DNA of 31,061 nt. Source: a virus. The notes beneath the pieces were generated by a model. That model was not told the DNA's origin and ran no database searches. It saw nothing but the letters and a program-made list of their open reading frames with translations. The stretch's first letter is position 1, and each line of letters opens with the position of its first letter. Both the position numbers and the translations under genes were made by a program. This document shows positions 20,646 to 24,344 of the stretch, piece by piece. The stretch is taken from the IMG/VR virus record IMGVR_UViG_3300043436_002183, positions 1-31,061 of that record. One strand, 5' to 3'.

Positions 20646-21353
20646 ATGAGTAATCGCAAACAGGCGTTCCAAACGCCACAATCCAATCCATCAACAAAGT
20701 TTATCGAGTGGAAATCAAACGACAAGTGTTTTTCTTACTACGACAAAGAGAAACAAATGAACGTTCAAATCCCTTTACCATTTAAGTTTTTAGTTCTTGA
20801 TGAACTTCACACCGTAAAAGGTTGGAATGATGCCACAAGTAGCAGCATTTATTCTAATGAGGTTAAATTCATTTCAAAAGAGGAGATGACTGTTAAACCT
20901 TTCAAAGGTAATGAAATTGCCAAAGGTCTTTACAAAGACATTAAAGAAAAAATTGTTGCAGCAGGTGGCCATTATACAAGAAGCATTTATGTTATGCTTG
21001 AAGATGGATCATTGGCCAATATTCAATTAAAAGGAAGCGCCACACAACAATGGGGTGATTTTACACAAAAGACTCGCTCCAAATTAGCTGATGAGTGGAT
21101 TATTGTAAAAGATACCAAAGATGGCAAAAAAGGGGCTGTTAAGTTTTCGATGCCAAACTTTGTGTTTGAAAAATCTTTAACGGATAAAGAATGTACAATG
21201 GCCGATGAGTGCTTTGACATTTTAGAGGCATACCTTAAAACCTATTTAATTAAAAAAGACATTAACGATATTGAGGTGGTTTTAAATGGAGACATAGCCA
21301 ATGACTTTAATGAATCACAAGAAGCTTCAGAGTTTGATGATTTAGATTTTTAA
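20646..21353 (+). CDS. putative ssDNA-binding protein (235 aa)
   Basis: A 235-aa protein with beta-rich middle (LPFKFLVLDELHTVKGWND, YTRSIYVMLEDGSLANIQLKGSA, WIIVKDTKDGKKGAVKFSMP) and a strongly acidic C-terminal tail ending ASEFDDLDF. An acidic tail with a terminal aromatic residue is the hallmark of replication SSBs such as E. coli SSB and T7 gp2.5, and the position beside recombination and primase genes fits. The RNA-like element E lies directly upstream and a terminator 22 nt downstream, so it may be a single-gene unit. I give SSB as likely, not proven. Confidence 0.72.
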   Translation: MSNRKQAFQTPQSNPSTKFIEWKSNDKCFSYYDKEKQMNVQIPLPFKFLVLDELHTVKGWNDATSSSIYSNEVKFISKEEMTVKPFKGNEIAKGLYKDIKEKIVAAGGHYTRSIYVMLEDGSLANIQLKGSATQQWGDFTQKTRSKLADEWIIVKDTKDGKKGAVKFSMPNFVFEKSLTDKECTMADECFDILEAYLKTYLIKKDINDIEVVLNGDIANDFNESQEASEFDDLDF

Positions 21354-21375
21354 ATAGCATTCAACACAACTAATT

Positions 21376-21400
21376 AAACCACCTTAATGGTGGTTTTTTT
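21376..21400 (+). terminator. Rho-independent terminator after SSB-like gene
   Basis: AAACCACC (21376-21383) pairs with GGTGGTTT (21389-21396) around TTAAT, followed by more T. It closes the transcription unit 22 nt after the SSB-like stop and isolates the inverted repeat beyond. Confidence 0.9.
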
Positions 21401-21412
21401 ATTTTAAACCTC

Positions 21413-21633
21413 GGTTTAAAATTTTAAACTATTTTCAACCAAAAAAACGCATACAACCCTTATAAACATTAAGTTTTAAACCATTTGGTTTAAAATTTTG
21501 AATTAAAAAAAAATATTTTATAAAATAATTTTATTAAACAACTTTGAATGTTTTAAACCAAATAGTTTAAAAGTCAATGTTTACAAGGGTTTAAGAGATT
21601 TTATTGGTTGAAAATAGTTTAAAATTTTAAACC
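21413..21633. repeat. large imperfect inverted repeat, candidate replication origin
   Basis: Left arm 21413-21495 and right arm 21551-21633 are inverted copies over 83 nt without gaps, 72 matches by my count, the outer 30 nt identical, with a 55-nt A/T-rich centre. The arms are themselves made of TTTAAACC-type palindromes (for example at 21402-21421, 21474-21495, 21617-21632). Mismatches are not G-U pairs, so the structure looks like a DNA dyad and not a folded RNA. The 21354-21722 gap holds no gene. It sits just upstream of a HTH protein and the primase, so an origin or protein-binding region is the leading idea. Confidence 0.85.
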
Positions 21634-21696
21634 TTACTTTAAAAAGTAAATTAAATTTAATTTTAATTTAATTAGTTTATATTAAATTTATTTTTT

Positions 21697-21704
21697 TATA
21701 TTTG
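21697..21704 (+). promoter_or_regulatory. -7 box (TATATTTG) before HTH gene
   Basis: TATATTTG ends 18 nt before the ATG at 21723. No exact TTTG lies at about 19 nt upstream, but the region is very AT-rich. It is adjacent to the inverted repeat, so binding there could control this promoter. Confidence 0.65.
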
Positions 21705-21722: not shown

Positions 21723-21941
21723 ATGACTACAAAAGACAAAATTTTAAAATTAAAAAAAGAAGACAAATCTATTTTGGAAATTTCAAATCTATTAGGTGTA
21801 TCGATTCAAAATGTTTATCAGCATTTAAGAATTGAAAAAGATAAAAAAGAAAAATCAAATAGAGTGGTTAATTTAACTGATTTAGATATTGAAAGATTAT
21901 CTGAAAGAATTTATTTAAAAATTTTAAATCATTTTAAATAA
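21723..21941 (+). CDS. small helix-turn-helix protein (72 aa)
   Basis: The N-terminal half holds a HTH of the homeodomain-like/sigma-70 region 4 type: SILEISNLLGVSIQNVYQHLR (positions 17-37 region), which resembles the C-terminal HTH of the primase (KEVSEQLGVSLQMIYKYIKE). The C-terminal part (LTDLDIERLSERIYLKILNHF) is a helix that could dimerise. It lies next to the 221-bp inverted repeat, so it may bind there as an initiator accessory or autoregulator. Promoter TATATTTG lies just upstream; RNA B follows 19 nt after the stop. Confidence 0.8.
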   Translation: MTTKDKILKLKKEDKSILEISNLLGVSIQNVYQHLRIEKDKKEKSNRVVNLTDLDIERLSERIYLKILNHFK

Positions 21942-21956: not shown

Positions 21957-21960
21957 CTTC

Positions 21961-22057
21961 TGTAATGTTCTGGTGGGTTCATTACAACTAAAGAATTATT
22001 AAAATGTCCTTTAGGGAGTAGTTGCCACCACAACGAAACCTAAAGGATTTTTATTTT
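21961..22057 (+). ncRNA. kissing-loop leader RNA, copy B
   Basis: P1: TGTAATG (21961-21967) with CATTACA (21980-21986) enclosing TGGTGG (21971-21976). A 21-nt linker follows. P2 CCTTTAGG (22008-22015) pairs with CCTAAAGG (22039-22046), followed by ATTTTTATTTT. P3 GTTG/CAAC (22021-22024, 22031-22034) carries CCACCA (22025-22030), the exact complement of TGGTGG. Both loops are six nt and fully complementary. The RNA is 86 nt to the end of P2. It precedes the primase gene (start 22068) by 21 nt. Confidence 0.88.
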
Positions 22058-22067
22058 AAAAACAAAT

Positions 22068-24344
22068 ATGGAAGAATCTAAATTAAAAAAGTTCTACGAA
22101 AATTTTTCTTTGATAACAGTATCAGATAACAAAGTTCCTAACTTTATTTGGAAGCAATCTCAAAATGAAAAACAATCCTGGGATAGCTTTATTAAAAATT
22201 TTAATTACAAAGGCGGTATAATTAAGAAGGATGGTAAAGAAATCCCTGCAACTACAAATTTTGGAATAGTTACAGGATTTGATTACCTGGAGTGTATTGA
22301 TGTAGATTTAAAAGTATTTTCAACAGCAAAAGAACAGATTGCATTTTGGACTGAATATATTGCTTATTTAAAAGATAACATATTAGATTTTGAAGATAAG
22401 ATAGTCGTTTATAAAACTAAAAACGCTGGTTATCATTTACTCTATAAATCAAAACGAGTTGAAGGAAATCTAAAATTAGCAAAACTTAAAGGACATAAAG
22501 AAGCTGTAATTGAAACGAGAGGAATAGGTGGTTATATTTTTACGTATCCTGATAACAAAGTTTATAAAAAGAGTTACCATGATATTGATTTTATTAGTGA
22601 TGAAGATAGAGAGATTATTATTAGTTTTTCTAAAATGTATGACTATCAAGAACCACAAAAAGAAGTAACGGAAACAAAGAAAATTAAAAGTGAATATGTT
22701 GAAGGAGAAATATTGCCTTGGGATGATTTTAATCATAAAAACAATATTTACGATATAGTTGCTTCTGAATTTACAATAGTTGGAAATCACAAAGATAAAT
22801 ACATTATAAAAAGATATGGTGGCACTTCACCCCATAGTGGTTATATTTTTAAAAATGATAATATAATGTTTCTTTTTTCAACAGGAACTATATATCCTCA
22901 TGAAAAACCAATTTCACCTTATACGGCTTATACTTGGCAAAAATTTAATGGTGATTTTAGTGCTTCTGCAAAACAAATTTATATTGATGGTTATGGTAGT
23001 AGAAAAGTAAAAAATGAATTAGAGCCTAAAGAAAAAATTATAATAAATAAATCAGACCTTGAATTCCCTATTGATATATTTCCAAAATCAATTCAGTCTT
23101 ATATTTTAGAATGTAACCAAACTTTAGACAGTTCCATAGATTATATGAGCTGTTCTTTATTATGGCTAACTTCATTAAGTATTGGTAATAGTATGCAAAT
23201 AGAAGTCAAAAGAGGATGGACTGAAATTGCTACGATTTGGGTGGCTATTGTAGGTAAAGCCGGTATAGGAAAAACACCATCCATATCAAATATTATATTT
23301 CCTTTAGAAAAAATTAATAATAGAGAAATAGCTAATTATATTAAAGAATACGAAAAATATGAGTATTACAATGGACTTTCAAAGAAAGATCAAGAAGAGT
23401 GCATGGAAGTCAATAAACCTATTAAAAACCAATTTATAGCCAATGATATAACTATTGAAGCTTTAGTTGATTTGCATCAGCAAAGCGATAATTCAGTTGG
23501 AGTTTTTAAAGATGAGTTAGCAGGATGGTTTAAAGATATGAATAAATATAAGCCAGGTTCAGATTTAGAGTTTTGGCTATCTACTTGGAGTGGAAAGTCT
23601 GTAAATTTAAATAGATTGACAAGAGCCGGATCATTTGTGGCAAAGCCATTAATTCCTGTTTTGGGTGGAATACAACCAAATATTTTTAATTCATTCTATA
23701 CTGACGACAATAAAGATAATGGGTTTATGGATAGAATGTTATTATCATTTCCTGATTTAACTATTGAAAGTTATAATGAAAATGAAATGAATTATGATAC
23801 TATTCAATGGTATAGTGATACTATAATTGCTTTTTATGATACTATAAAAAATAAAATTATTAATAGAGATGCTGATGGAGCCATTGTACCTAAAGTTGTT
23901 AAATTCAATGCTAAATCCAAATCGGAATGGATGCGAATTTTTAATGAAATAACAGAAATTCAAAACAGCGAAAGCGAAAATGAATATATGAAATCAATGT
24001 TGCCAAAGCAAAAGTCTTATATTCCACGCTTCGCTCTTTTAATACACGTTTTTGGCGCAATAGGGCAAACAAATTACAATTTAGATGAAATATCAGTTGA
24101 TTCTATTTTAAAGGCGGAAAAGCTATCTAAATACTTCATCGCTATGGCTAAAAAAGTAAAAATTGATAGCATTGAAGTTTCAGAAATACGAAAGGTTTTA
24201 AAAACTAATGATGGCAAAACTAATAAGGATAAGTTTGCTTTGCTTTATGAAGCCAATAAAAACTTAAATAAAAAAGAAGTATCGGAACAACTTGGCGTTT
24301 CATTGCAGATGATTTATAAATATATTAAAGAATTAGATAAATGA
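22068..24344 (+). CDS. primase/ATPase replication protein with DUF3987 domain (758 aa)
   Basis: The N-terminal third resembles the bifunctional primase-polymerase domain: GIVTGFDYLECIDVDLKV, then TKNAGYHLLYKS and ETRGIGGYIFTYPDN. The middle has the DUF3987 P-loop ATPase: Walker A GKAGIGKT at residues 396-403, then VFKDELAGWFKDMN near 480 and the LGGIQPNIF and GFMDRMLLSFPD segments. A C-terminal HTH (KEVSEQLGVSLQMIYKYIKE) ends the protein. It is likely the replicative primase-helicase. The gene lies behind RNA B and the inverted repeat, with a 4-nt overlap with the next gene. Confidence 0.9.
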   Translation: MEESKLKKFYENFSLITVSDNKVPNFIWKQSQNEKQSWDSFIKNFNYKGGIIKKDGKEIPATTNFGIVTGFDYLECIDVDLKVFSTAKEQIAFWTEYIAYLKDNILDFEDKIVVYKTKNAGYHLLYKSKRVEGNLKLAKLKGHKEAVIETRGIGGYIFTYPDNKVYKKSYHDIDFISDEDREIIISFSKMYDYQEPQKEVTETKKIKSEYVEGEILPWDDFNHKNNIYDIVASEFTIVGNHKDKYIIKRYGGTSPHSGYIFKNDNIMFLFSTGTIYPHEKPISPYTAYTWQKFNGDFSASAKQIYIDGYGSRKVKNELEPKEKIIINKSDLEFPIDIFPKSIQSYILECNQTLDSSIDYMSCSLLWLTSLSIGNSMQIEVKRGWTEIATIWVAIVGKAGIGKTPSISNIIFPLEKINNREIANYIKEYEKYEYYNGLSKKDQEECMEVNKPIKNQFIANDITIEALVDLHQQSDNSVGVFKDELAGWFKDMNKYKPGSDLEFWLSTWSGKSVNLNRLTRAGSFVAKPLIPVLGGIQPNIFNSFYTDDNKDNGFMDRMLLSFPDLTIESYNENEMNYDTIQWYSDTIIAFYDTIKNKIINRDADGAIVPKVVKFNAKSKSEWMRIFNEITEIQNSESENEYMKSMLPKQKSYIPRFALLIHVFGAIGQTNYNLDEISVDSILKAEKLSKYFIAMAKKVKIDSIEVSEIRKVLKTNDGKTNKDKFALLYEANKNLNKKEVSEQLGVSLQMIYKYIKELDK

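Follow-up and report, generated by a model that had tools for sequence, protein, structure and literature searches.

A dyad-symmetric iteron array beside a PrimPol-DUF3987-HTH primase gene as the probable replication origin of a Bacteroidota virus

What is the function of a long inverted repeat that lies in the largest intergenic region of a virus genome? The repeat is found in IMG/VR record IMGVR_UViG_3300043436_002183, a virus record of 31 kb that has a long module of minus-strand genes; its 31,061 nt were analysed whole and are called the window here. The arms of the repeat, 21413-21495 and 21551-21633, are complementary at 72 of 83 positions, perfectly over the outer 30 nt, around a 55-nt centre. 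An earlier note made from the sequence gave these figures, and our recount agrees exactly; 50 positions of the centre are A/T. Ungapped extension to 21402-21502 and 21544-21644 yields 101 nt per arm with 83 paired (~82%). The inverted repeat scores 50, whereas 100 dinucleotide shuffles never exceeded 17 and the runner-up in the window reached 13, which excludes a chance origin. Folded as DNA, the repeat reaches -62.4 kcal/mol (z = -11.8). None of the 11 arm mismatches forms a G.U pair, as the note had also observed, and an Rfam search over the arms found no match, so that the arms lack the marks of a structured RNA. The intergenic region that holds the repeat (369 nt) is indeed the largest, although not the only sizeable gene-free gap that the note took it to be, since others measure 280, 250 and 183 nt.

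The repeat is built from short sites. GTTTAAA occurs 29 times in the window, nine of them inside 21403-21632 (230 bp), and the start-to-start distances in the window's array are symmetric (12, 8, 52, 14, 63, 14, 52, 8). The array that we propose as replication origin is dyad-symmetric and 243 bp long (21402-21644; A/T ~80%). Its left outer iteron cluster (21402-21432) has exact GTTTAAA/TTTAAAC sites at 21403 (minus), 21414 (plus) and 21423 (minus). The left arm gap (21433-21473) carries a degenerate IHF-like second element, CCCTTATAAACATTAA, at 21455-21470 (of the TAAACATTGA type), and is followed by the left inner iteron pair (21474-21495; sites at 21475, minus, and 21488, plus). Beyond the A/T-rich centre (21496-21550), the proposed melting site, come the right inner pair (21551-21572; 21552, minus, and 21565, plus), the right arm gap (21573-21613), which has the IHF-like second element CCCTTGTAAACATTGA on the reverse complement, and the right outer cluster (21614-21644; 21617, plus, and 21626, minus, with a degenerate third copy). 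Two features expected of an iteron-type origin are present, repeats (nine GTTTAAA in 230 bp) and an A/T-rich region for melting (50/55).

On its left the array is bordered by an intrinsic terminator, read from the sequence as ACCACC..GGTGGT plus a T run (21374-21401, plus strand), which belongs to the gene for a 235-aa protein of unknown function (phrog_6706; 20646-21353, plus). On the other side follow, in order, a Bacteroidota-type promoter -7 box, TATATTTG, identified by motif only (21697-21704, plus), the gene for a 72-aa HTH protein (21723-21941, plus), a structured leader, and the gene for a 758-aa PrimPol-DUF3987-HTH primase-helicase, the proposed initiator (22068-24344, plus). The note had described this arrangement as a terminator on one side and an HTH protein and the primase on the other.

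Phage records searched by megablast with the right half of the window gave no match. The relatives that we assembled comprise 213 primase loci (some overlapping) with 107 distinct proteins, 103 of which have enough flanking sequence. An array was found within 900 bp of the primase gene for every one of these 103, upstream in 49 and downstream in 54, in the latter case starting from the stop codon (median -4 bp). The most frequent 7/8-mer occurs at least six times in 400 bp at 102 of the 103 loci, compared with 3 of 285 control stretches, all three of which are one AGC repeat. Phages that have a homologue of the 235-aa gene (65-97%) and not this primase have no array, the exception being a few contigs that end right after the 235-aa gene; the array therefore belongs to the primase. 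In a 64-kb contig (L046), the 235-aa homologue (76% identical; 2347-1739, minus) is inverted relative to the primase, so the two genes move independently. The note had proposed to look for relatives without the repeat at this place: the array does stay beside the primase, while its side and its iteron sequence vary. No clear array was seen for the DUF3987 relatives from human gut phages and for the PrimPol relative from Cellulophaga phage phi40:1 (L293-L296), which have other domain architectures and in which any 8-mer reaches at most five copies. Primase relatives in bacterial genome collections are from Bacteroidota, and the window virus is a virus of Bacteroidota bacteria.

Across many different iteron sequences the arrays keep one layout of about ten 7-8-bp iterons: an outer cluster with 10-12-bp steps, a gap of ~40 bp, an inner pair, a centre of ~52-55 bp, and then the mirror image. 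Mean A/T content in the relatives is 0.71 in the flank gaps and 0.88 in the centre, and the mirroring of iteron orientation is not strict. A long hairpin as the defining feature was rejected, as the inverted-repeat score is at least 30 in only 4 of 56 divergent loci (window counted), with a median of 17. The inverted repeat of the earlier note is thus real in the window, but what is conserved is iterons and spacing, and the window's near-perfect palindrome is an extreme case of a layout that its relatives maintain with different sequences. The flank gaps have a signal of their own: ATTGA is found in 65 of 109 segments (14 in shuffles, maximum 25), and the IHF consensus WATCAANNNNTTR, which is that of E. 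coli, in 24 of 109 (0.7 in shuffles, maximum 3). This second, IHF-like element is not carried by the centres.

Two further observations concern the arrays. At one locus (L056, 2883-2995), head-to-tail 15-bp repeats, GTTGGATA, replace the symmetric array. Arm segments between the 235-aa gene and the primase (L005, L008, L012, L013; 21433-21613 in the window) recur in relatives in the same or inverted orientation: ACAACCCTTATAAACATT from the window's left arm is also in the right arm of L013, and the left arm of L013 is found, reversed, in the right arm of L005. By their sequences such segments look like cassettes, as if half-origins recombine.

Pfam recognises Prim-Pol, DUF3987 and a C-terminal HTH (HTH_11) in the 758-aa protein. 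The best structural match of its PrimPol domain is pRN1 ORF904 (1rni/3m1m; Foldseek). A structure model places the recognition helix of the HTH, SLQMIYKY (residues 745-752), third among the helices of the C-terminal domain. The helicase core is poor in this model (pLDDT <50 over 455-566), so a helicase role for DUF3987 rests on a prediction in the literature (PMC5862659); a superfamily assignment from the whole-protein model was dropped because the core is unreliable.

To compare helices, we took the eight residues at the start of the primase's last helix at 68 non-redundant loci. The Mantel test, which is frame-free, associates helix with iteron given the protein body (partial r = 0.454, p = 0.0005); body and iteron given the helix show next to nothing (r = 0.054, p = 0.14). 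Where bodies are more than 35% apart, motif distance is 0.135 if the helix is shared and about 0.37-0.52 if it differs. Conversely, L065 and L052 have bodies only 1.7% apart and different helices, with iterons ATGTTACA versus GTTTAAAA, and L180 and L179, 0.7% apart, likewise differ in helix and have ATGTCGCA versus TATGCAAA. At three pairs with upstream arrays (L032/L029, L081/L079, L219/L216) helix and iterons have both changed; since a whole gene separates the HTH codons from such an array, this favours a coupling by function over simple linkage.

Part of a code can be read from the 47 distinct recognition helices found. In a fixed frame, which ten helices do not fit in simple form, Arg at helix residue 3 goes with C in the iteron (G opposite) in 9 of 9 helices compared with 2 of 28 others, and helices with Leu, Val or Ile at residue 2 are paired with A in 9 of 10 cases, compared with 1 of 27 others; the Fisher p-values (4e-7 and 8e-7) are too optimistic because the sequences are related by descent and the frame was picked after inspection. 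Arg-G and Gln-A contacts are textbook knowledge. As far as sequence comparison can tell, iteron sequences change with the recognition helix of the C-terminal HTH and not with the rest of the protein; the coupling is strong by covariation, and binding itself is predicted.

Which protein would bind the iterons? The earlier note pointed to the 72-aa HTH protein, a choice that the closest relatives speak against: L005-L007, with primases 98% identical to that of the window, keep the array and lack this protein, which is absent from many relatives. Covariation makes the C-terminal HTH of the primase-helicase the likely iteron binder, and not primarily the small protein, which would be an accessory at most. 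The 72-aa protein is related to the primase HTH, and its helix, SIQNVYQH, has at residues 2 and 3 the I and Q that accompany TTTAA; it may for this reason compete or regulate, and roles as competitor or autoregulator are possible. Small HTH units are also seen elsewhere. Upstream of the primase of L014, two lie beside the array (SIQYVYRV and SVQYVYRI). An ORF 652 bp upstream of the primase of L038 has the helix SRQTVHLW, which matches the primase's SRQMIYNF at residues 2-3 and suggests that the two share specificity. In L218, a 494-aa ORF located 387 bp downstream of the primase start has the primase's own recognition helix, SRMQIIRW, and is perhaps the primase itself in a shorter version, or else another protein that uses the same iterons; a second ORF there has a further HTH, TRKCLYDW.

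The leader that separates the HTH gene from the primase (21960-22055) has a hairpin resembling a terminator, AATGTCCTTTAGG..CCTAAAGGATTTTT; its loop, CCACCA, is able to pair with the upstream strand TGGTGG to give a pseudoknot. This layout recurs 5′ of the primases of relatives with quite different, still complementary strands (GCTGTGGC/GCCACAGC in L032, ACGACCAA/TTGGTCGT in L034, CCTCTTAC/GTAAGAGG in L005), and the mean loop-strand pairing score is 17.3, compared with 12.1 when loops are swapped. An Rfam search found no match for the leader, which may represent a new family of attenuators or small RNAs. A promoter-like stretch at 5474-5508 matches the one before the primase leader at 86% over 34 nt and sits 5′ of a 461-aa plus-strand ORF inside the minus-strand module.

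Because an array sits beside all 103 primases and its iterons track the HTH helix, we take 21402-21644 to be, with high probability, the origin of replication, to which the virus's own primase-helicase would bind. The candidate origin, the protein-binding iterons and the DNA-level function proposed in the earlier note all draw good support from the relatives. GC skew shows no switch at 21.5 kb and has its minimum near 18.5-19 kb, tracking gene direction; being confounded in this way it neither supports nor refutes an origin, and it was discarded as evidence.

From the array, its geometry, its linkage to the primase and its coupling to the helix we infer a theta-type initiation at 21402-21644. 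Copies of the 758-aa protein would bind the iterons through the C-terminal recognition helix, as the covariation suggests. A bend at the IHF-like site of each arm, a site that stands out statistically, could then bring the two sets of bound protomers together; the bending protein would be host IHF or HU. The two sets would load as two DUF3987 helicase rings on the A/T-rich centre and melt it, and the PrimPol domain would lay the first primers, as its domains and the examples of P4 alpha, pRN1 and PICI Rep suggest. We consider this full explanation, with HTH-bound iterons, bent arms, helicase loading on the centre and PrimPol priming, highly likely on the strength of the sequence comparisons.

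Other explanations deserve weighing. The PrimPol-helicase-HTH protein might recognise a stem-loop or cruciform rather than iterons, as proposed for pRN1 ORF904 and phage BIP-1. The fold in the window is very strong, and among solved structures the N-terminal domain is closest to the PrimPol of pRN1 ORF904; next to that gene, a 100-nt stem-loop serves as the origin (PMC4234260). Yet relatives do not keep long inverted repeats (median score 17; at least 30 in 4 of 56 divergent loci), iteron orientation varies while iteron presence and spacing stay constant, and iteron sequence tracks the HTH; stem-loop recognition is thus very improbable. An operator, by which the 72-aa protein or the primase HTH controls the HTH-primase promoter at 21697 without any origin, would fit the place of the array between a terminator and that promoter, and also the I2 and Q3 of the small protein's helix, which accompany TTTAA. 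We regard it as improbable, as 54 of the 103 relatives have their array downstream, from the stop codon of the primase onwards, the closest relatives keep it without the small HTH gene, and ten or so sites symmetric around an A/T-rich centre would make an unusual operator. Autoregulation on top of origin function is possible.

Symmetric repeats beside A/T-rich DNA also occur at partition, packaging and recombination sites, and the array might be such a site that is merely located in the replication module. It nevertheless accompanies the primase gene in differing gene neighbourhoods and varies with the HTH of the primase, phages that share only the neighbour gene have no array, and no partition genes were recognised among the proteins scanned, so that we give this explanation hardly any credence. 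An origin bound by the primase-helicase is the reading that we retain.

To our knowledge, origins of uncultivated phages are almost never identified, and DUF3987 continues to be listed as a protein of unknown function. Here, comparison of relatives would yield an origin, its proposed binder and part of the binding code, so that origins can be indicated in about a hundred distinct phage contigs. Pairs with bodies 98-99% identical and different helices are natural experiments on changing replication specificity. More broadly, we see about an even chance that a large family of Bacteroidota phages uses one PrimPol-DUF3987-HTH protein as initiator, helicase and primase, that helix and iterons have co-diversified into dozens of specificities, with modules repeatedly swapped on near-identical bodies, leaving co-infecting phages or parasites unable to use or block each other's origins, and that the collection amounts to an HTH-DNA code.

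Several known systems are close. For DUF3987-AEP proteins with a C-terminal WH, recognition of origins has been predicted (PMC5862659); the passages of Kazlauskas 2018 on PrimQH / all3500-type AEPs with DUF3987 offer a prediction and name no origin and no iteron-helix coupling, and our literature search found no paper naming origins of DUF3987-AEP proteins. In the PLE satellites of Vibrio cholerae, the DNA-binding domain of RepA and the origin iterons covary and are swapped as modules, and a phage nuclease attacks the origin (PMC8263062). That initiator (RepA_N) is unrelated and has few specificities, whereas here 47 helices are found, in phages; an arms race akin to that of PLE as the cause of iteron diversity would be speculation by analogy. 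With pRN1 ORF904 and phage BIP-1 the window protein shares PrimPol, helicase and a C-terminal DNA-binding domain, and an origin beside the gene. According to its authors, the pRN1 origin is a stem-loop that lacks iterons, and they proposed stem-loop recognition for proteins of this kind (PMC4234260), whereas here iterons are conserved and a large stem-loop is not. P4 alpha unites primase, helicase and a C-terminal iteron-binding domain of helix-turn-helix type in one polypeptide (PMC4234260). Prim-Pol, DUF3987 and C-terminal HTH_11 resemble this plan, with helicase activity predicted (PMC5862659), but P4 alpha has a bacterial-type Toprim, DnaG-like primase instead of an archaeo-eukaryotic PrimPol (Pfam, Foldseek) joined to a DUF3987 ATPase, and, unlike P4 ori/crr, the window has no second, crr-like iteron cluster in the GTTTAAA site scan. 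The PICI/SaPI Rep system (pri-rep-ori) is alike in its initiator helicase with a C-terminal origin-recognition domain and in its origin beside the gene, and the two iteron sets flanking an A/T-rich region that characterise pri-rep-ori are found in the window array. It differs in that a single PrimPol-DUF3987-HTH protein of Bacteroidota virus records, not a satellite Rep, is involved here, that the origin lies upstream or downstream of the gene, and that the arms have IHF-like sites. The PICI-like origin architecture is thereby extended to phages with a different primase-helicase; the array very probably has an ordinary role in a new form, a PICI-like iteron origin run by a Bacteroidota-phage PrimPol-DUF3987-HTH protein, with a readable initiator-origin code.
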